The notes under the pieces were generated by a model. It made no database searches and was not told the origin of the DNA. It was given only the letters and a program-made list of their open reading frames with translations. Below are positions 2,325 through 7,909 of a DNA stretch of 32,323 nt, one piece after another. The stretch is from IMG/VR virus record IMGVR_UViG_3300051212_000755, positions 1 through 32,323 of that record. One strand, given 5' to 3'. This DNA comes from a virus. Both the position numbers and the translations under genes were made by a program. How positions within the stretch are numbered: the first letter of the stretch is position 1; every line of letters starts with the position of its first letter.

Positions 2325-2636
2325 ATGAAATATACTAAAGAAATCACAGATAAAATTGTTGAACAGTACAAAAGTGGTCAAACCGCTAAACAGATAGCAG
2401 AAACTCTAGGCGTCGCTGACCGTAGCATTATAGCCAAGCTTAGCAGTTTGGGTGTCTACCAAAAAAAGGTCTACACCAACAAACGTGGCGAGGTGCCAGT
2501 CAAAAAATACGAGATGATCGAACGATTGGCCGAACTGTTGGAGGTGCCATCAGATCAGCTAGAAAGTTTAGAAAAAGTAAACAAAAATGTACTTAAATTG
2601 CTGGAAATTAGGTTATCTGACCCTAAACCGCAATAA
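2325..2636 (+). CDS. HTH DNA-binding protein, paralogue A (103 aa)
   Basis: The N-terminal half (residues 1-50) is a helix-turn-helix region with the pattern KEITDKIVEQYKSG..AKQIAETLG..DRSIIAKLS, matching two other proteins in this window at 3632-3958 and 7314-7640. After it comes the shared VY..K.Y..K.GE.PVKK stretch and a helical C-terminus. The start at 2325 is preferred because the homologues begin just before the Y-T/S-x-E-x-T block; the longer frame from 2262 overlaps the upstream gene. No clear SD is present, but TTTAGGGTCA lies directly upstream (2313-2322). It is the only rightward copy and the most diverged. A role as transcription regulator is inferred from the fold. Confidence 0.75.
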   Translation: MKYTKEITDKIVEQYKSGQTAKQIAETLGVADRSIIAKLSSLGVYQKKVYTNKRGEVPVKKYEMIERLAELLEVPSDQLESLEKVNKNVLKLLEIRLSDPKPQ

Positions 2637-2674: not shown

Positions 2675-2721
2675 TTGCCTGGACGTGTGGGTTTCTGTGG
2701 TTTAGGGTCAGAAATATTTAC

Positions 2722-2751
2722 TTGACACTGTGGCCGTTTTGGCACTATAAT
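2722..2751 (+). promoter_or_regulatory. promoter module P1, rightward
   Basis: TTGACA (2722-2727), 18-bp spacer, TATAAT (2746-2751), then TTGGCGCA in place of the GGCGCC box. TTTAGGGTCA (2701-2710) ends 11 bases before the -35, the position that the second CCGAC site holds in sister modules. No inverted repeat covers this -10. The first 200 bases downstream are structured and non-coding. Confidence 0.75.
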
Positions 2752-2940
2752 GTTGGCGCAAGACCACTAAAATTTTGCTTTTGCACTAGGTTAGCCACTG
2801 GCGCAAATTCAAGTTTTTGCACTTGAAGTTTTAGCACTGGCGCAGCACCACTAGTGGTGTGCTAAGTTCTAGAACCTATATTGTTATAGATCCTAAACCG
2901 TTCCAAGTTCTAGAATTTAGCACGGTTATAGAAATTGTAG
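2752..2940 (+). ncRNA. putative structured transcript from P1
   Basis: This stretch has no gene but several strong inverted repeats: 2859-2875 with 2907-2923 (16 of 17 pairs Watson-Crick) enclosing a hairpin CTATA/TATAG (2876-2889), a perfect CACCACTAGTGGTG palindrome (2846-2859), TCAAGT/ACTTGA (2808-2825), and repeated phrases such as CACTGGCGCA (2774 region, 2836 region). It fits a short regulatory RNA made from P1. No terminator is seen before P2, so its 3' end is unknown. Confidence 0.45.
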
Positions 2941-2955
2941 CGTTCCAAAAACTAT

Positions 2956-3037
2956 CCGACCGGCGGCGGCTTAGGGTCGACAGGCGGCGGCATTTTCGCT
3001 TGACACGCACGCAAATTTTATGGTAAAATTTGGCGCC
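2956..3037 (+). promoter_or_regulatory. promoter module P2, rightward
   Basis: Two 11-bp sites, 2956-2966 and 2977-2987, start 21 bp apart. TTGACA follows 12 bp later (3000-3005), then an 18-bp spacer and TAAAAT (3024-3029). The -10 lies in a perfect inverted repeat, CAAATTTTA (3012-3020) with TAAAATTTG (3024-3032). GGCGCC is at 3032-3037, followed by a stem CGTTAT/ATAACG (3042-3060). The second site overlaps a TTAGGGTCGA motif. No rightward gene follows. Confidence 0.75.
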
Positions 3038-3102
3038 AGATCGTTATCAATTTTATAACGGTATAATAACCATAACAACACCCAATTACACCCAAAACCG
3101 AC

Positions 3103-3183
3103 CCGACGAACGGCAGATTGGAGCCGACGAACGGCGGAGAAAACGCTTGACACGCGTGCAATTTTACTGGTAAAATTGGCGCC
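3103..3183 (+). promoter_or_regulatory. promoter module P3, rightward
   Basis: Two exact CCGACGAACGG sites at 3103-3113 and 3124-3134 (21 bp apart), 12 bp, TTGACA 3147-3152, 18-bp spacer, TAAAAT 3171-3176. The perfect inverted repeat CAATTTTAC/GTAAAATTG (3159-3178) spans the -10, and GGCGCC is at 3178-3183. P3 lies about 147 bp behind P2 with the same layout, so the pair looks like a tandem duplication that has diverged. Confidence 0.8.
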
Positions 3184-3256
3184 AGGTAGTTATAAATTAT
3201 ATAATTTATAACCGTTCAGGAAAAAATAACGGCCCGCTTTGGGCCGTTATGGTTTC
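3178..3256 (+). ncRNA. putative short RNA from P3 (about 75 nt)
   Basis: From the expected start in GGCGCC the transcript would hold a perfect 24-base AT palindrome (3189-3212) and then a 10-bp GC-rich hairpin (3226-3250) that also serves as terminator for the leftward gene. There is no reading frame. Transcription from P3 and termination at this hairpin are predictions from sequence only; the T-run on this strand is weak (GGTTTC). Confidence 0.45.
3221..3256 (-). terminator. terminator of the leftward HTH-B operon, possibly bidirectional
   Basis: A perfect 10-bp stem (3226-3235 with 3241-3250, five-base loop) lies 14 bases past the stop codon of the 3264-3578 gene. On the leftward strand it is followed by six T, a textbook intrinsic terminator. 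Confidence 0.85.
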
Positions 3257-3263
3257 TAGAACC

Positions 3264-3578
3264 CTAGTCTACTAGGTCTATTTCCAGCATGTTATCAATT
3301 ATATAACCTGGAAGCTTGGTGGTTTCACCATGCATGTAGCGATCGACCGCTATAAATTCTCCGATCTTGCGATCGAATTTGTCATTATCAGCACACCAGG
3401 CAAATGCAACGTCATAAAATTTAGCATGACGCGCATTGTTTACACAAGGCATGGCAACAAGGCAAAATCCGTTTTCATCGCCTACGGGCGGGCGATTATG
3501 AACAATTCCGCCAGACTCGCGCACAAGTGCGACCATTTGCTTGCGATATGCTTTTTGAGCTTTTGTCATCTTTTCCAT
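3264..3578 (-). CDS. protein of unknown function (104 aa)
   Basis: AAGGA lies at a good distance upstream of the start at 3578. The N-terminus is lysine-rich and helical (MEKMTKAQKAYRKQMVALVR), and the rest is a mixed alpha/beta sequence with three Cys residues (FCLVAMPCVNN and AWCADND) that do not form an obvious zinc site. No signal peptide or membrane segment is seen. It is the second gene of a two-gene leftward operon behind HTH paralogue B and is followed by a clear terminator. Gene pairs of an HTH regulator plus a small unknown protein occur twice in this region (see 7069-7640). The function is unknown. Confidence 0.7.
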   Translation of the reverse strand: MEKMTKAQKAYRKQMVALVRESGGIVHNRPPVGDENGFCLVAMPCVNNARHAKFYDVAFAWCADNDKFDRKIGEFIAVDRYMHGETTKLPGYIIDNMLEIDLVD

Positions 3579-3631
3579 AACAGTATTCCTTTCTAGAGTT
3601 TAGAATGGAACGGGTTTCCCCGTTCCAAATT

Positions 3632-3958
3632 TTACAGCGGTTTGCTGTTTGCTAAGGCATCGAAAATGGCCTTAAGAGCCGATTTGTTCGCCTTAGTTAG
3701 CGATTCTATATCGTTTTCCGATAGGCGAAGAATCGCGCCGATAGCATCGGCCGTTACATCTTTTTTAACAGGCTTTTCGCCTGTTTTCGAGACGTACTGT
3801 TTAGCGATATAAACTTTCTCACGCGAAAGTTTCGCTACAATACTGCGAACGGTTTTACCCATTGCCGACGCGATTTGCTCGACGGCAACCCCTGCCTGAT
3901 AATCTGCTATAATCTTAGCAGTCTGCTCAGGCGTATAGTTAACGGCTTTTTCTGCCAT
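3632..3958 (-). CDS. HTH DNA-binding protein, paralogue B (108 aa)
   Basis: Close paralogue of the product at 7314-7640 and more distant from that at 2325-2636. Residues 8-55 contain the HTH (YTPEQTAKIIADYQAG..VEQIA..MGKTVRSIVAKLS), followed by EKVYIAKQY, KTGEKPVKKDV and a helical tail that includes ENDIESLTKANKSALKAI. AGGAG precedes the start by eight bases. The gene is read leftward from a promoter with TATAAT at 4015-4020, divergent from module P4. Sequence-specific DNA binding is inferred from the fold; that it binds the CCGACNNNCGG sites next door is a hypothesis. Confidence 0.8.
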   Translation of the reverse strand: MAEKAVNYTPEQTAKIIADYQAGVAVEQIASAMGKTVRSIVAKLSREKVYIAKQYVSKTGEKPVKKDVTADAIGAILRLSENDIESLTKANKSALKAIFDALANSKPL

Positions 3959-4014
3959 GCTATAACTCCTAGAACTGTCTTGGGCTTGACCCTATGTCTC
4001 CCGCAACAGAATCA

Positions 4015-4046
4015 ATTATACACGGGTTTGCCTGGTAGATTGTCGC
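4015..4046 (-). promoter_or_regulatory. leftward promoter of the HTH-B operon
   Basis: On the minus strand TATAAT occupies 4020-4015, with GCGACA (4046-4041) 20 bases upstream, so the -35 is poor. The region 4041-4068 contains an inverted repeat (TGTCGC / GACAAT) and is nearly identical to 6809-6836 ahead of the HAD operon, indicating a shared regulatory element. Confidence 0.55.
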
Positions 4047-4097
4047 CCAGATGACAATTGGCCTACCATTCATCAGGTGGATCAGCGGCAACCCAAC

Positions 4098-4191
4098 CCG
4101 ACCAACGGCAGACTGCATCCGACGAACGGTACCCCGCAGGGGTTGACACGGCCGCAAAATCTATGATATAATTATCATAGATTTTGGCGCC
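4098..4191 (+). promoter_or_regulatory. promoter module P4, rightward
   Basis: Sites CCGACCAACGG (4098-4108) and CCGACGAACGG (4119-4129) start 21 bp apart. After 13 bp come TTGACA (4143-4148), an 18-bp spacer and TATAAT (4167-4172). The -10 sits in the longest inverted repeat of the family: perfect 14-bp arms 4155-4168 and 4173-4186. GGCGCC is at 4186-4191, here 13 bp past the -10. Confidence 0.8.
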
Positions 4192-4262
4192 ATCGCTCTA
4201 AATTCTATAACTTAGAGCGATATAGAAAAAATTATAGCGGCTATAGGCCGCTTTAATTTTTA
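4186..4262 (+). ncRNA. putative short RNA from P4 (about 75 nt)
   Basis: The expected transcript begins at GGCGCC, folds a perfect 10-bp stem (4192-4201 with 4212-4221) and ends at a hairpin AGCGGC/GCCGCT (4236-4252) followed by TTAATTTTT. It carries no reading frame and ends at the 3' edge of the SprT-like gene. Expression is predicted, not shown. Confidence 0.5.
4228..4262 (-). terminator. bidirectional terminator after the SprT-like gene
   Basis: The stem 4236-4241/4247-4252 lies just past the leftward stop codon at 4260. It is followed by T-rich sequence on both strands (ATAATTTTTT leftward, TTAATTTTT rightward). Confidence 0.75.
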
Positions 4263-4649
4263 TAACGTCCTCACAATTGGTTCGTTTTTATTTATATAAT
4301 ATTCGTGGGTTGCCGACGGTGGCAAGCCATACTCTAGCATCATGCGCCGCCAATCAGGCCCATGCCAAAAGTCTGTGGGATCTTCGCCGTTAATTATATA
4401 ATCTGCAACATGAATTAGCTCATGCGGTACAATTACACAAAGCATCTCAGCTTTATAACGGTTAAAAAATTTGCTAGCAAATTCTACCTCATGCACCTCG
4501 CAGTGGGCTAGGCCCGCAGTGCGATACATGCGATTGCTAATTCTAACCTTTGGAACGCTATGCTTTTTTAGTTGGGGCCACAATTCTTGCATAGCAGTCC
4601 AGTGTAGGGTAACAGCGGCTGTTACAACTTTTATCAACGAATCGGCCAT
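4260..4649 (-). CDS. SprT-like zinc metallopeptidase (129 aa)
   Basis: The zinc-peptidase motif HELIH is at residues 76-80, with a third ligand candidate His in the later FWHGPDWRRMM block (H96), the layout of SprT/Spartan-type domains. Family members cleave proteins crosslinked to DNA or act on DNA-bound proteins; in phages their role is mostly unknown. The length fits a stand-alone SprT-like domain without a C-terminal zinc ribbon. GAGG lies eight bases ahead of the start. The gene is last in a leftward three-gene operon behind a DnaQ-like exonuclease and a small membrane protein and overlaps the latter by 16 bases. A DNA repair or processing role is plausible from the neighbour, but the substrate is unknown. 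Confidence 0.82.
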   Translation of the reverse strand: MADSLIKVVTAAVTLHWTAMQELWPQLKKHSVPKVRISNRMYRTAGLAHCEVHEVEFASKFFNRYKAEMLCVIVPHELIHVADYIINGEDPTDFWHGPDWRRMMLEYGLPPSATHEYYINKNEPIVRTL

Positions 4650-4885
4650 AATTTATACCTCGCAATAATTGTTACAAGAATTAGATTGGCAATATAGTTT
4701 GCTATAAGAATCATATCGCCCTTGGGCACGATATAGATTGTCATGGAAACCATACCAGTCCACCACATTGCTATAAAACCTAAGGTAAGCCCGTCCGAGT
4801 TTTTAGAACGATAGGATTCAATGGCTTGGGGCAGGGCCGAAGCCCCAAGCAGTATAGAACCTAGAACGCCGAATGTATCAAACAT
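4634..4885 (-). CDS. PQ-loop / SemiSWEET-like small membrane transporter (83 aa)
   Basis: Three hydrophobic segments (residues about 5-20, 34-53, 57-76) flank a PQ-loop signature: ASALPQAIESYRSKNSDGLT, followed by LGFIAMWWTG. This order and the 83-residue length match bacterial SemiSWEETs, half-size sugar carriers that work as dimers in the membrane. The start at 4885 is supported by AAGGA at the right distance and by the family length; the frame stays open upstream to 5002 but would overlap the exonuclease heavily. It overlaps genes on both sides by 8 and 16 bases, so it is translationally coupled. A transporter gene in phage DNA is unusual; the transported compound is unknown. Confidence 0.75.
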   Translation of the reverse strand: MFDTFGVLGSILLGASALPQAIESYRSKNSDGLTLGFIAMWWTGMVSMTIYIVPKGDMILIANYIANLILVTIIARYKLWPIR

Positions 4886-5570
4886 TGTAATGATCCTTGA
4901 CCTGAAATTTCTTCCAATCATAAGGCTCGATGCGATCGCGCCAACCTTTAGAACGTACAATCTTTTGTAGGATTGGAATCTCAAAATCCCTAGCATCTTC
5001 AAGTGCAGTGTGGGGTTCAGTAATAAGATTACCAGTTACAAAACCTGCAACAGTCTCAGCGTCAGTCTTGAATGTCATATTACCTTTATCGGTCGCATTA
5101 TTGAAACGATGATTGTCGAGAACAAAACGCTTATACTTTTTGGAACGGCAGATGTTACCTACAGCGGCTTGCCAAAGGCAAAAGCGGCTAGTGAAAGAAT
5201 CTAGAACGATGCCAGAGTTAGCACATTTGCTAGTATCAAAGGCAAGATTGTATGCGGTTAAGATAGGATCATAAGTACCGATACATTTATTGATCCAGTT
5301 ATTTATAGCAGTTACCGATGCAAGCATACGTGTACCAGAATCTAGCATGTTCTGATAATTAGCACGACGACGCTCAAGGTTAGCGTTAGACCAAAAACCG
5401 TTAGCATTTTTATCATGGAATAAGGTTGCAGGGTCATAGAACTCACGAACTAGAACGCTACAACTATTGTAAATCTTGCCGTGACGGTCACAAACTACAA
5501 TGGCAAAATCCATAACGGTATCGTTAAGGGTCGTTTCAGTATCTAGAACAGCGAAGTATTGTCGTTTCAT
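4878..5570 (-). CDS. DnaQ-like DEDDh 3'-5' exonuclease (230 aa)
   Basis: The three exonuclease motifs are present in order: DTET at residues 10-13, AYNLAFD around residue 112, and HTALEDARD at 187-195, with the H-x4-D spacing of the DEDDh class. Two metal ions held by these acidic residues would cut nucleotides from DNA or RNA 3' ends. No polymerase domain is attached, so it may be a proofreading subunit, a repair exonuclease or an RNase; the sequence does not decide. AAGGT precedes the start. It is first in the leftward operon with the PQ-loop and SprT-like genes, behind a TATACT promoter and divergent from module P5. Confidence 0.85.
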   Translation of the reverse strand: MKRQYFAVLDTETTLNDTVMDFAIVVCDRHGKIYNSCSVLVREFYDPATLFHDKNANGFWSNANLERRRANYQNMLDSGTRMLASVTAINNWINKCIGTYDPILTAYNLAFDTSKCANSGIVLDSFTSRFCLWQAAVGNICRSKKYKRFVLDNHRFNNATDKGNMTFKTDAETVAGFVTGNLITEPHTALEDARDFEIPILQKIVRSKGWRDRIEPYDWKKFQVKDHYNV

Positions 5571-5601
5571 AATTTATAACCTTAAAAGTTGAGCAACACC
5601 C

Positions 5602-5607
5602 AGTATA
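5602..5607 (-). promoter_or_regulatory. leftward -10 box of the exonuclease operon
   Basis: Minus-strand TATACT, about 30 bases upstream of the exonuclease start, has no recognisable -35 (TGGCAC at 17 bp). All four leftward promoters here combine a good -10 with a weak -35, which suggests dependence on an activator. Confidence 0.45.
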
Positions 5608-5673
5608 CCATAAAATGCCAGATAGTGCCATAATTCGCCGCCGCCCATCGGCTAGCCACCACCACACATCCGA

Positions 5674-5757
5674 CCGACCAGCGGCGGCTACGAGCCGACG
5701 AACGGTCGGCTCAGGCCTTGACACGCTCGCAAAAATTATGATATAATTTTTGGCGCC
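5674..5757 (+). promoter_or_regulatory. promoter module P5, rightward
   Basis: Sites CCGACCAGCGG (5674-5684) and CCGACGAACGG (5695-5705) are 21 bp apart. After 12 bp come TTGACA (5718-5723), an 18-bp spacer and TATAAT (5742-5747). Perfect 10-bp inverted repeat arms 5730-5739 and 5743-5752 cover the -10, and GGCGCC is at 5752-5757. A 9-bp stem ATGGCTATA/TATAGCCAT follows (5758-5787). Confidence 0.8.
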
Positions 5758-5799
5758 ATGGCTATAAATTTTATAATCTATAGCCATAACGTGGAACAG

Positions 5800-5815
5800 T
5801 GTTCCACGTGAAACC
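5800..5815. promoter_or_regulatory. parS-like ParB site 1 (14 of 16 bases)
   Basis: TGTTCCACGTGAAACC matches the canonical parS TGTTTCACGTGAAACA except at positions 5 and 16; position 5 is variable in known sites. It overlaps a 19-base palindrome (5790-5808) and ends on the stop codon of the leftward gene at 5815. Partition use is inferred. Confidence 0.5.
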
Positions 5816-6180
5816 TAAACTTGTATGCTTTCCCAACCTGCAAGAGCACGCTTTGCCATTTGCTGGTAGAACGTAGCAGATTTTAGATCACCACGCTCAA
5901 TGTCAGCGCTAGCCCAACTTGTATAACGCTCTGCATCTCGTAACAGTTGACGCCGATTCAACTCGCGCCAAAAATCAGAACGTCCATCTGGCATAGGGCT
6001 AAGGTCAAACTCAGCGGGCAGGCTATGATACTCTGCACGCAAATCGTTATACATTCTAGTAACCCAACCTAAATCGTTCCAATCGCTAACCGTTCCAAAA
6101 TCTGGATCAAAACCGTACATTTCGTTATAAAGTTCAACCAGATTATCTTGCATGTTATAGAGCTTAGCTATAGTTTCCAT
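5815..6180 (-). CDS. protein of unknown function (121 aa)
   Basis: The start at 6180 is chosen because AAGGA lies upstream and it begins just after the stop of the HAD gene (TGATATG junction); a longer frame from 6234 would overlap that gene by 53 bases. The product is acidic and aromatic-rich, with helical stretches (METIAKLYNMQDNLVELYNE at the N-terminus). I see no membrane segment and no motif that I recognise. It is second in a two-gene leftward operon, translationally coupled to the phosphatase. No T-run terminator follows; instead a palindrome and a parS-like sequence lie at its 3' end. The function is unknown. Confidence 0.68.
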   Translation of the reverse strand: METIAKLYNMQDNLVELYNEMYGFDPDFGTVSDWNDLGWVTRMYNDLRAEYHSLPAEFDLSPMPDGRSDFWRELNRRQLLRDAERYTSWASADIERGDLKSATFYQQMAKRALAGWESIQV

Positions 6181-6181
6181 A

Positions 6182-6658
6182 TCAATGTCCTTGTTTGCTT
6201 GGAACGTAAACGCCCCGAATGTTAAAGTAATCACAAACTGCTTTAAGATATGCTACATTATCCTCATAAAATACAGCGTCATTAAAAGTATAACCTAGTG
6301 TGCTATACAATTTGAAAATCCGTTTTAGTCCTTCAATCTTGAGAGTAGCACCAGAACGGTTATCATTTTCATTACGGCTAACGATATGGTCAGGTGTACC
6401 TAGTTTGCTATAAATAAATGCACGATCAGCGTTCCGCAAAATACGGGCAGTAGCAATAACGACAATACAGTTGGGATCATCGAGATCGTTTTTATATTGT
6501 TCTGCCAATGGTAACAAACTATCATCAAGTGCCCGATACTCGTTAGCACGCCAGTAGTCGAGATCAATGCGCTCAATACCGTTATTAACAATGGTACGAT
6601 ACCTGTGCATACTGCAAACAATTGTGCCATCCATGTCATAGATCGCTATCCTTTTCAT
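6182..6658 (-). CDS. HAD-superfamily phosphatase (158 aa)
   Basis: Motif I is YDMDGTI (D8 and D10), motif II the Thr of VVIATAR (T70), a motif III candidate lysine lies at K107 (TLKIEGLK), and motif IV is the acidic pair in FYEDN (E132, D133). This is the full HAD set for aspartyl-phosphate chemistry. Length and layout, without a large cap, resemble phage deoxynucleotidase and polynucleotide 3'-phosphatase-type proteins; the substrate cannot be read from the sequence. AAGGA precedes the start. The mRNA has an unusually long, structured leader of roughly 115 bases. The next gene is coupled to it. Confidence 0.85.
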   Translation of the reverse strand: MKRIAIYDMDGTIVCSMHRYRTIVNNGIERIDLDYWRANEYRALDDSLLPLAEQYKNDLDDPNCIVVIATARILRNADRAFIYSKLGTPDHIVSRNENDNRSGATLKIEGLKRIFKLYSTLGYTFNDAVFYEDNVAYLKAVCDYFNIRGVYVPSKQGH

Positions 6659-6735
6659 AACCTGTATCCTTATAAAGTCTAGAATGTTGTAAGGTTTAAC
6701 TTGTCTGCCCTTGCCCTATCGGCCCTATCCGAGGG

Positions 6736-6758
6736 TAGGCGGGGTTACTGGCCGCCTA
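6736..6758 (-). other. leader stem-loop of the HAD operon
   Basis: A 7-bp GC-rich stem (TAGGCGG 6736-6742 with CCGCCTA 6752-6758) lies in the untranslated leader between the TATACT promoter (6783-6788) and the HAD start. Next to it is a near-direct repeat of CCCTATC (6714-6730). It may be an attenuator or stability element; no T-run follows. Confidence 0.35.
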
Positions 6759-6782
6759 GAGTCATGCCCTACAACAGAAACA

Positions 6783-6814
6783 AGTATACCTGAATTTTTG
6801 AGGTCAAATGTCGC
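6783..6814 (-). promoter_or_regulatory. leftward promoter of the HAD operon
   Basis: Minus-strand TATACT (6788-6783) has GCGACA (6814-6809) 20 bases upstream, the same spacing as at 4015-4046. The inverted repeat TGTCGC/GCGACA (6809-6824) and the following TTGCCTACCAT are shared with that promoter, as is the CTGTTG downstream of the -10. Confidence 0.55.
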
Positions 6815-6864
6815 CCAAGCGACAATTGCCTACCATCCATACCCTACAGCCTGCCACACATCAG

Positions 6865-6947
6865 ACGACCAGTGGTCGATCCTACCCGACGAACGGTAGC
6901 CGCGGGGGCTTGACACGCTGCCAAATTATATGCTATAATTTGGCGCC
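6865..6947 (+). promoter_or_regulatory. promoter module P6, rightward
   Basis: A degenerate first site ACGACCAGTGG (6865-6875) and an exact CCGACGAACGG (6886-6896) are 21 bp apart. After 13 bp come TTGACA (6910-6915), an 18-bp spacer and TATAAT (6934-6939). The inverted repeat CCAAATTATA/TATAATTTGG (6921-6943) is perfect, and GGCGCC is at 6942-6947. A CGCTATA/TATAGCG stem (6950-6968) and a T-rich stretch follow. Confidence 0.8.
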
Positions 6948-6990
6948 TGCGCTATAAAAAATATAGCGGTATATTTTTTGTGTGCGCTAC

Positions 6991-7006
6991 TGTTTCACGT
7001 GAAACA
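6991..7006. promoter_or_regulatory. canonical parS ParB-binding site 2 (16 of 16)
   Basis: TGTTTCACGTGAAACA is an exact copy of the classical bacterial parS sequence. It is the centre of a perfect 28-bp palindrome (6985-7012) with no loop and no T-run, which argues for a DNA-binding site over a terminator. It lies downstream of P6 and before the 3' end of the leftward gene at 7069. Confidence 0.65.
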
Positions 7007-7068
7007 GTAGCGTGCAAGGAATGTTATCATAAACATAACGTACAGCCACAGGGCCAGGGTAAGTGTTC

Positions 7069-7281
7069 TCATTCCTGCATCGATCCAGTAAGTGTATTGT
7101 AATGCTTATTATAGCTAGGCCCAGTGAGTTTGCGACCCAGGATTCTATTTTTTATAAGCCACATGAAACCTTTGTAATCAGTGGGCACAATAAAAAACTG
7201 TAGCGGTTCCTCAACGGCAACTTCAGCACGACGAGTAAACGCTATAACTTTTGAATCAGTGGCAAGTGCTACATTTTTCAT
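7069..7281 (-). CDS. small protein of unknown function (70 aa)
   Basis: A short basic protein (starts MKNVALATDSKVIAF) with a central aromatic and hydrophobic stretch (PLQFFIVPTDYKGFMWLIK), which is more like a folded core than a membrane helix. No motif is recognised. There is no clear SD; instead a 9-bp stem with a GCAA tetraloop (on the minus strand) lies about 10 bases upstream of the start, between this gene and the preceding HTH gene, and may control its translation. It is the second gene of the leftward operon beginning at 7640. The function is unknown. Confidence 0.6.
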   Translation of the reverse strand: MKNVALATDSKVIAFTRRAEVAVEEPLQFFIVPTDYKGFMWLIKNRILGRKLTGPSYNKHYNTLTGSMQE

Positions 7282-7289
7282 AATGTTTA

Positions 7290-7311
7290 TATAGGGGCTT
7301 GCGCCCCTATA
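7290..7311 (-). other. intercistronic stem-loop with GNRA tetraloop
   Basis: The arms TATAGGGGC (7290-7298) and GCCCCTATA (7303-7311) pair perfectly. Read leftward the loop is GCAA, a stable GNRA tetraloop. It sits between the HTH stop codon (7314) and the start of the 7069-7281 gene. No T-run is present, so a processing or translation-control role is more likely than termination. Confidence 0.5.
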
Positions 7312-7313
7312 CC

Positions 7314-7640
7314 CTAGTTGGCAGAGTTACGGATAAAATCCGAGATTGCACGCAGTGCGCTCTTGTTAGCCTTAGTGAGAGAATCTATATCATTCTCGCT
7401 GAGCCTGAGAGCCGCACCGATGAAATCAGCGTGAACATCCTTTTTAATGGGAGTCTCACCGCTTTTAGTTCTATATTCTTTAGCGATATAAACTTTTTCA
7501 CGGCTGAGCTTCGCTACAATTGAGCGAACAGTCTTGCCAACTTTCTCGGCAATTTGCTCAACGCTAACACCGGCCTGATAGTCGGCCACAATCTGAGCAG
7601 TTTGCTCAGGGCTATAGTTGGGTGCTTTGGCAGTTGCCAT
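7314..7640 (-). CDS. HTH DNA-binding protein, paralogue C (108 aa)
   Basis: Nearly the same protein as paralogue B at 3632-3958: the HTH core VEQIA..VGKTVRSIVAKLS, the EKVYIAKEY segment, K.GE.PIKKDV and the ENDIDSLTKANKSALRAI tail are all conserved. It begins at 7640 with CTGGAG upstream. Its promoter (TTGCTA, 17 bp, TATACT) is divergent from the late promoter P7 only about 50 bp away, the typical place for a repressor or activator of the late genes. That role is inferred from position and fold. Confidence 0.82.
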   Translation of the reverse strand: MATAKAPNYSPEQTAQIVADYQAGVSVEQIAEKVGKTVRSIVAKLSREKVYIAKEYRTKSGETPIKKDVHADFIGAALRLSENDIDSLTKANKSALRAISDFIRNSAN

Positions 7641-7671
7641 TTGCTAACTCCAGTGGGTTGAAAGAAACTCT

Positions 7672-7700
7672 AGTATAGGCCAGTCGAGTAGCAGTAGCAA
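7672..7700 (-). promoter_or_regulatory. leftward promoter of the HTH-C operon
   Basis: Minus-strand TTGCTA (7700-7695), 17-bp spacer, TATACT (7677-7672), about 30 bases ahead of the start codon. It is the best of the four leftward promoters. Confidence 0.6.
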
Positions 7701-7714
7701 CTACCATTCGTCAG

Positions 7715-7757
7715 CCGACAGACGGTCTTGACACGGGACGGGTTGGTATGGTACAAT
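7715..7757 (+). promoter_or_regulatory. late promoter P7 for packaging/head/tail genes
   Basis: TTGACA (7728-7733), 18-bp spacer, TACAAT (7752-7757). Only one direct 11-bp site is present (CCGACAGACGG 7715-7725), and it abuts the -35 at two bases, ten bases closer than in other modules; a reversed, degenerate copy (CCATTCGTCAG 7704-7714) lies next to it. There is no inverted repeat on the -10 and no GGCGCC. The changed geometry suggests different regulation of the one module that drives genes. Confidence 0.75.
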
Positions 7758-7909
7758 AGGGGCGGTTATCGGACTGTTATAAGAAATTGTTCTGGGGGCC
7801 CCTGCTCACGGCCTATTTCAGAAATTTTTTCAAAACAGCTAAGGTGCCAAAATCTCAACTTGCCCAACAACTACCACCCATGATATACTCCAATAAACTG
7901 GAGAAATCG

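Follow-up and report, generated by a model that had tools for sequence, protein, structure and literature searches.

The IMG/VR virus record IMGVR_UViG_3300051212_000755 is complete, and its 32,323 bases make up the whole stretch analysed here (the window). It carries seven rightward promoters, P1-P7, at 2722, 3000, 3147, 4143, 5718, 6910 and 7728, all on the + strand. A sequence-only reading had listed these seven with TTGACA, an 18-base-pair (bp) spacer and a TAWAAT or TACAAT -10 box, and every one of them was recovered; TTGACA-N18-TAHAAT matches seven times in the window, whereas 100 dinucleotide shuffles gave 0.03 matches on average and at most 1. Five of the promoters, P2-P6, are the modules considered here. 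In each of them the -10 lies within an inverted repeat (H2), a GGCGCC box follows, and a second hairpin (H3) stands downstream. The modules point against the leftward genes that flank them, they belong to a large family in T5-like phages, and they look like an undescribed kind of phage gene switch.

Promoters and genes in the window

The seven promoters and two sites resembling parS, the site of the partition protein ParB, are arranged as follows.

2722..2760 (+), P1: TTGACA, 18 bp, TATAAT, GTT and GGCGC, with no palindrome, after a rightward gene block
2956-2966 and 2977-2987 (+), paired upstream sites of P2, 21 bp apart
3000..3037 (+), P2 core: -35 at 3000-3005, H2 at 3012-3032, -10 TAAAAT at 3024-3029, GGCGCC at 3032-3037
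3042..3060 (+), H3 of P2
3103-3113 and 3124-3134 (+), paired upstream sites of P3
3147..3183 (+), P3 core: -35 at 3147-3152, H2 at 3159-3178, -10 TAAAAT at 3171-3176, GGCGCC at 3178-3183
3189..3212 (+), H3 of P3
4098-4108 and 4119-4129 (+), paired upstream sites of P4
4143..4191 (+), P4 core: -35 at 4143-4148, H2 with 14-bp arms at 4155-4186, -10 at 4167-4172, GGCGCC at 4186-4191
4192..4221 (+), H3 of P4, followed by a bidirectional terminator-like site at 4236-4252
5674-5684 and 5695-5705 (+), paired upstream sites of P5
5718..5757 (+), P5 core: -35 at 5718-5723, H2 at 5730-5752, -10 at 5742-5747, GGCGCC at 5752-5757
5758..5787 (+), H3 of P5
5800..5815, parS-like ParB site with one mismatch (TGTTCCACGTGAAACC), after H3 of P5
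6865-6875 (weaker) and 6886-6896 (+), paired upstream sites of P6
6910..6947 (+), P6 core: -35 at 6910-6915, H2 at 6922-6942, -10 at 6934-6939, GGCGCC at 6942-6947
6950..6968 (+), H3 of P6, then a T-run forming a rightward terminator-like site, with a predicted RNA of about 38 nucleotides (nt)
6991..7006, perfect parS site (TGTTTCACGTGAAACA), after H3 of P6
7715..7757 (+), P7: precedes the terminase genes, with a single CCGACAGACGG site at 2 nt from the -35 and no H2

Paired upstream sites, the GGCGCC box and the downstream hairpin had been described as common to P2-P6, and this layout holds. A palindromic -10 had been described as well; the inverted repeat does contain the -10, but it also covers the spacer. 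In a covariance model built partly from these same five sequences, P2-P6 score with E = 3e-6 to 1e-10. P1 and P7 share the -35, the -10, the spacing and a G+C-rich box with P2-P6, the palindrome being absent. P2 and P3 had been taken for a recent tandem copy. However, the same pair is also present in related loci L005 (2128 and 2253), L023 (93 and 218) and L024 (4577 and 4725), and, judged by sequence, it is an old tandem pair.

Promoters of the P1 class were also found in L005, L021, L024, L067 and L071, and short repeats, e.g., TTTTGCACTTGAAG and CACTGGCGCA, follow promoters of this type (window 2722-2890; L067 4241; L071 3265). In addition, GTTTAGGGTC occurs 14 times in the window with at most one mismatch (1.5 expected), at sites including 591, 2312, 2619, 2700, 2969, 11753 and 15375, and many of these copies surround P1 and the rightward block. 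A conserved late leader, approximately GGGCGGTTATYRGACT, follows the P7-like promoter in both clades of relatives described below (window 7757-7800).

All credible genes between 3264 and 7640 run leftward, so that the modules face them, an orientation which the earlier reading did not mention. The late genes (terminase, portal, head, tail and tape measure) run rightward from 7787. The genes around the modules are the following.

2325-2636 (+), third D5/GcrA-like helix-turn-helix (HTH) gene, closing the rightward block before P1
3264..7640 (-), leftward genes separated by modules, including one of 104 amino acids and those at 4878-5570, 5815-6234 and 7069-7281
3632-3958 (-), D5/GcrA-like HTH gene
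4260-4649 (-), SprT-like gene
6182-6658 (-), polynucleotide-kinase-like gene
7314-7640 (-), D5-like (D5/GcrA-like) HTH gene

Three small D5/GcrA-like HTH proteins are thus encoded in one region and are candidate regulators of the modules.

Module family and genome setting

Approximately 380-400 distinct modules of the P2-P6 family were found in T5-like phages of IMG/VR. The family layout consists of TTGACA, 18 bp, TAWAAT inside a perfect 8-14 bp inverted repeat (H2), GGCGC, and a second perfect repeat (H3). The proposal of a repeated regulatory cassette with constant geometry and changing sequence has good support from hundreds of relatives. Among relatives selected by their terminase, 102 promoter matches with arms of at least 7 bp and a GGCG box were obtained (83 distinct), all on the late strand and with 18-bp spacing, in a scan that itself demanded the -35 and the -10. 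Other promoters in the same loci mostly have 17-bp spacing and no palindrome. A reverse search began from the inverted repeat plus TGGCGC and then looked for TTGAC upstream. It returned 447 candidates; in 391 of these (87%) a TTGAC was close by, almost always at 10-13 nt upstream of the arm, and the spacing was 18 bp in 386 of 387; many of these loci came from promoter-pattern scans, so selection was not fully removed. The remaining candidates that were inspected proved to be mostly H3 read from the other side.

The -35 of the modules matches the consensus at a mean of 5.89 of 6 positions. Since near-consensus elements at a fixed spacing have been retained through deep divergence, there is a strong case, from sequence, for predicting that the modules are sigma70-type promoters, with TTGACA and TATAAT-type boxes within 16-19 bp.

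A profile scan of relatives, as the sequence-only reading had proposed, found modules in 27 of 38 records with the covariance model. Absence of the pattern from every relative, which that reading had named as a refutation, is thereby excluded. In each positive record (up to 128 kb) the modules form a single cluster on one strand, and the weak opposite-strand matches are these palindromes in reverse reading. Wherever the terminase has been located, the cluster lies immediately upstream of it, and both neighbouring open reading frames (ORFs) are leftward for 227 of 327 modules, as judged with a crude ORF caller. In two contigs, G009 (102,184 bases) and G019 (100,539 bases), the cluster extends across the contig ends, suggesting that the map is circular or that it was broken at the repeats. 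The exact 20-base module pattern has at least 120 matches in viral contigs and none in 84,980 cellular genomes. In T5 and Vibrio phage D239 the covariance model found no module, and the exact TTGACA-N18-TAWAAT is not present. No paper describing this layout was found in a literature search that left out most subscription journals.

The upstream sites depend on the clade. In the close clade, CCGACnRRYGG pairs stand exactly 21 bp apart, i.e., two helical turns, in all 58 of 58 two-site promoters; the nearer site is 12-13 nt from the -35, and only one match was on the reverse strand. The distant clade has another element, ACAACATAGG..CCTA (ACAACAT/TAGG..CCTA type), in the upstream position. The same elements accompany the late promoter: among 30 P7-like promoters, 15 carry a CCGAC-type site 2-3 nt from the -35 and 4 carry the ACAACAT/TAGG..CCTA element, never both.

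As for the rest of the genome, the large terminase subunit shares about 48% identity with its counterparts in Vibrio T5-like phages, and IMG/VR contains 458 relatives of it, while no close DNA relatives of the window were found among 50,697 phage records. The two largest proteins match tail domains. Positions 1-950 form a long stretch without credible genes that holds inverted repeats, and a piece resembling a tRNA T arm lies near 730-760; no tRNA or Rfam family was found in this stretch. Rfam gave 0 matches in the window at gathering score; a Trp leader at 870-968 was a sub-threshold match (E 0.12).

Hairpins, terminators and parS sites

The H2 arms differ in sequence and length (8-14 bp) between modules. 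In 104 distinct GGCG promoters with 18-bp spacing they average 8.8 bp, compared with 4.0 for shuffled sequence and 4.1 for 283 other promoters. In long H2 repeats of the P4 type, GGCGC shifts outward with the arm, and the -35 and -10 still stand 18 bp apart. Pairing is specific to each module: the own halves of 29 representatives give 10.0 against 6.1 for swapped halves, the largest of 200 swapped means being 7.2. In 217 distinct sequences, 2170 H2 pairs are Watson-Crick and 18 are others, and the third base of the -10 covaries with the left arm, TAAAAT pairing with TTTTA. The extended -10 motif TGn directly precedes the -10 in 298 of 382 modules, usually as the H2 loop. A third hairpin seen by eye upstream of the -35 (H1, TAGGGG..CCCCTA) was not above control across the family.

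A palindrome of this kind could represent back-to-back -10 elements of a bidirectional promoter. Indeed, 284 of 382 modules have a leftward TAWAAT in their left arm, but the leftward -35 reaches a mean of only 2.14 of 6 matches (2.39 when shuffled) and never 5 or more, and the complementarity extends beyond the -10. Lacking an opposite-strand -35, this very improbable explanation was rejected. Another possibility is that polymerase uses the hairpins of single-stranded DNA as a promoter or primer, as at Frpo or the M13 origin, for very early expression or priming. Two perfect hairpins beside a promoter, on one strand only, would fit such a function. Against it, the pairing probability of the -35 in the single-stranded fold is 0.53, equal to the background of 0.53 (0.89 for the -10), and TGTCAA occurs within 150 nt upstream in just 52 of 398 modules. 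We consider it quite unlikely.

The H3 hairpin starts 4-12 nt past the first G of GGCGC and has an arm of at least 7 bp in 72-84% of modules, against 3-4% of shuffles. It is almost perfectly Watson-Crick, and its sequence and loop vary freely among modules. The asymmetry of G.T and A.C pairs, 9 versus 2 in 78 sequences, shrank to 21 versus 11 in 348, and no strand conclusion is drawn. A small hairpin RNA made of GCGC and H3 and acting in trans would agree with the position of H3 and with the subset of modules ending in a T-run at about 38 nt, but it would have to tolerate the free variation of H3 and its loop, the near absence of G.T pairs on either strand and the missing terminator of most modules. 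This is unlikely, and, as H3 lacks conserved sequence, a trans-acting or anti-CRISPR-like RNA was not retained as an explanation. It is also conceivable that template-switch mutation at replication stalls, rather than selection, made the perfect palindromes. Perfect pairing with little conserved sequence in H3 would be expected from this process; the geometry relative to the -35 and GGCGC, fixed over deep divergence, and the lack of a palindrome at P1 and P7 of the same phages would not, and the explanation is extremely unlikely.

All modules have GGCGC after the right arm, since they were selected for it, and it is present in P1-class promoters too. The box is mainly GGCGCC, GGCGCA or GGCGCG, with variable bases after it. 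It resembles the T5-type single-strand interruption, which here would be a nick in the late strand at G/GCGC, between H2 and H3. The T5 annotation N-Pu/GCGCN fits (T)G/GCGCN, and the T5 nick sites that were read lie on the late-sense strand. On the other hand, the T5 consensus R/GCGCRGG (PMC3517423) does not fit the GGCGCC or GGCGCA contexts, the T5 sites have neither -35/-10 nor H2, and T5 has no module. The modules were accordingly rejected as T5 interruption sites, and nicking of this type has a very small probability.

A strong terminator was predicted downstream of 105 of 388 modules, against 1 in shuffled sequence. Within 170 nt, a strong rightward terminator follows 70 of 388 modules, with a peak at 36-39 nt, and a leftward one follows 45; in the window, rightward terminator-like sites stand at P6 and P4. 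These sites raise the possibility that the modules are passive insulators, in which tightly bound polymerase, together with H3 and nearby terminators, halts read-through between leftward units, the RNA being irrelevant and the timing unregulated. The position in gaps between leftward units, the near-consensus -35 with an extended -10, and terminators in both directions all agree with this. However, it leaves unexplained both the self-complementary spacer and the precisely spaced upstream sites common to the late promoter, and we regard it as rather unlikely.

Sites resembling parS are expected 0.13 times in the window at up to two mismatches. With at most one mismatch, 2.4 Mb of relatives contain 101 matches, against 1 for a control palindrome. 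In module-bearing loci, 67 of 68 parS contexts are no more than 300 nt from a module, always on its downstream side and nearly all at 29-65 nt. Conversely, 69 of 403 modules (17%) have a site with up to two mismatches within 95 nt downstream; none lies upstream and none has three mismatches. Exact parS is common in other viral contigs, and 0 of 80 examined had an adjacent module. Of a ParABS system, canonical parS is present and an own ParB gene was not found, as no ParB_N (PF02195) gene was detected in the records of 16 relatives (control positive in 10 genomes). It appears that parS is a discrete add-on to one sixth of the modules, probably for host ParB. The region could instead be a centromere-like zone: host ParB, loaded at the parS sites next to H3, would spread across the leftward region and either silence it or link the phage genome to the partition machinery of the host, with promoters and hairpins as spreading barriers. 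The placement of the sites exclusively downstream of modules, the clear gap in their mismatch distribution, their association with modules and the lack of a phage ParB_N gene speak for such a zone. Nevertheless, 83% of modules and two thirds of loci with at least three modules have no parS, so it cannot be the core function, and exact parS is common in contigs without modules. A centromere-like zone is therefore decidedly improbable.

A possible gene switch and its known counterparts

The reading that we tentatively prefer, at somewhat less than even confidence, is that the modules are hairpin-gated promoters of the late regulon, recognized by a host sigma70-type polymerase and directed rightward against the leftward, probably early, units that they separate. 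The self-complementary spacer and -10 would exist either as a duplex accessible to polymerase or in the form of an extruded hairpin. The balance between the two would be set by supercoiling and by a phage regulator at the clade-specific upstream sites. With the modules on, RNA polymerase may load in each gap between leftward genes and make a short RNA that is not translated; this RNA would begin near GGCGC with H3 at the 5' end and, in part of the family, be terminated at about 38 nt. As a result, the leftward units would be blocked or silenced while the late operon (P7) is on.

It is their direction, together with their position in the gaps, that suggests an action of the modules against the leftward units. 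They are assigned to the late regulon chiefly because the clade-specific upstream element is common to P7. The role proposed for H2 follows a precedent: when an N4 early-promoter hairpin was inserted between the -35 and -10 of rrnB, the promoter lost its activity, which novobiocin, an inhibitor of gyrase, restored (PMC4496689). By the same logic, H2 may be a supercoiling-sensitive gate. No sigma70 region 2 gene was found in 11 records, with a positive control. In T5, according to its annotation, D5 is required for late transcription and is involved in shutoff. Given this annotation and the three D5-like HTH proteins here, a D5-like factor acting on the upstream sites is a reasonable guess.

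Several points weigh against this reading. A cruciform can be expected only if the phage DNA is negatively supercoiled, and that the leftward genes are early is an assumption drawn from T5. Neither upstream element is carried by 11 of the 30 P7-like promoters, and the shared element could equally be a repressor site; silencing and timing have only this element and the orientation behind them. Furthermore, 283 of 388 modules have no strong intrinsic terminator downstream, so a short defined RNA is not general. Finally, a hairpin-gated promoter does not explain parS at 17% of the modules. A more elaborate version of the hairpin-gated promoter, in which a multi-copy switch senses supercoiling, fires against the early genes and shuts them off when the late operon is turned on, host ParB being recruited by parS beside some copies, is doubtful.

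If the hairpin-gated reading is true, it would define a promoter class by structure as well as sequence, present in several copies per genome in common environmental T5-like phages. These phages would then offer a natural, repeated test of hairpin extrusion controlling ordinary sigma70 promoters. It also hints at a means by which T5-like phages such as these, for which no sigma factor was found, might time the change from early to late genes. A separate question, prompted by the parS sites and open to testing, is whether such a phage recruits the chromosome-partition protein of its host.

Among known systems, the early promoters and intergenic promoter-terminator units of T5 are similar in that terminase-related phages place units with their own promoters and terminators between genes; T5 and D239 differ in having neither the exact promoter pattern nor the module. 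The localized nicks of T5, tf and phiKMV-type phages likewise follow a repeated motif on one strand only, GCGC in T5. The T5 sites have no promoter or hairpin, and GCGC alone is common to them and the modules. The rrn P1 promoters of E. coli are consensus-like and, as in the modules, have a GCGC-rich stretch after the -10. They differ in having no palindrome and a long rRNA product. The parS sites, exact beside P6, are those of bacterial chromosomes; here they occur in phages and at a minority of modules, and no ParB_N gene was found in the 16 relatives.

The Frpo/ssi elements of conjugative plasmids resemble the modules in TTGACA/TATAAT and in a -10 within a hairpin. In Frpo, the -35, -10 and UP elements all have complementary regions (PMC11541004), whereas the -35 of the modules is not in a stem. 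Identity with Frpo was ruled out, since the -35 is not double-stranded in the folded single strand. The N4 early hairpin promoters share with the modules conserved inverted repeats whose unconserved bases can change if pairing is kept, and their extrusion is gyrase-dependent. They are used by the phage's own virion RNA polymerase and have a short stem and a G+C-rich heptamer centred at -11 with flanking inverted repeats (PMC4496689), whereas the modules have a sigma70-type -35/-10 and AT-rich arms of 8-14 bp. An N4-type promoter was rejected, as the module centre is mostly TGn flanked by A/T instead of the heptamer; a search for a phage polymerase with PF00940 matched nothing, nor did its positive control. 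The hairpin-bearing layout has a real chance of representing a new regulatory principle.

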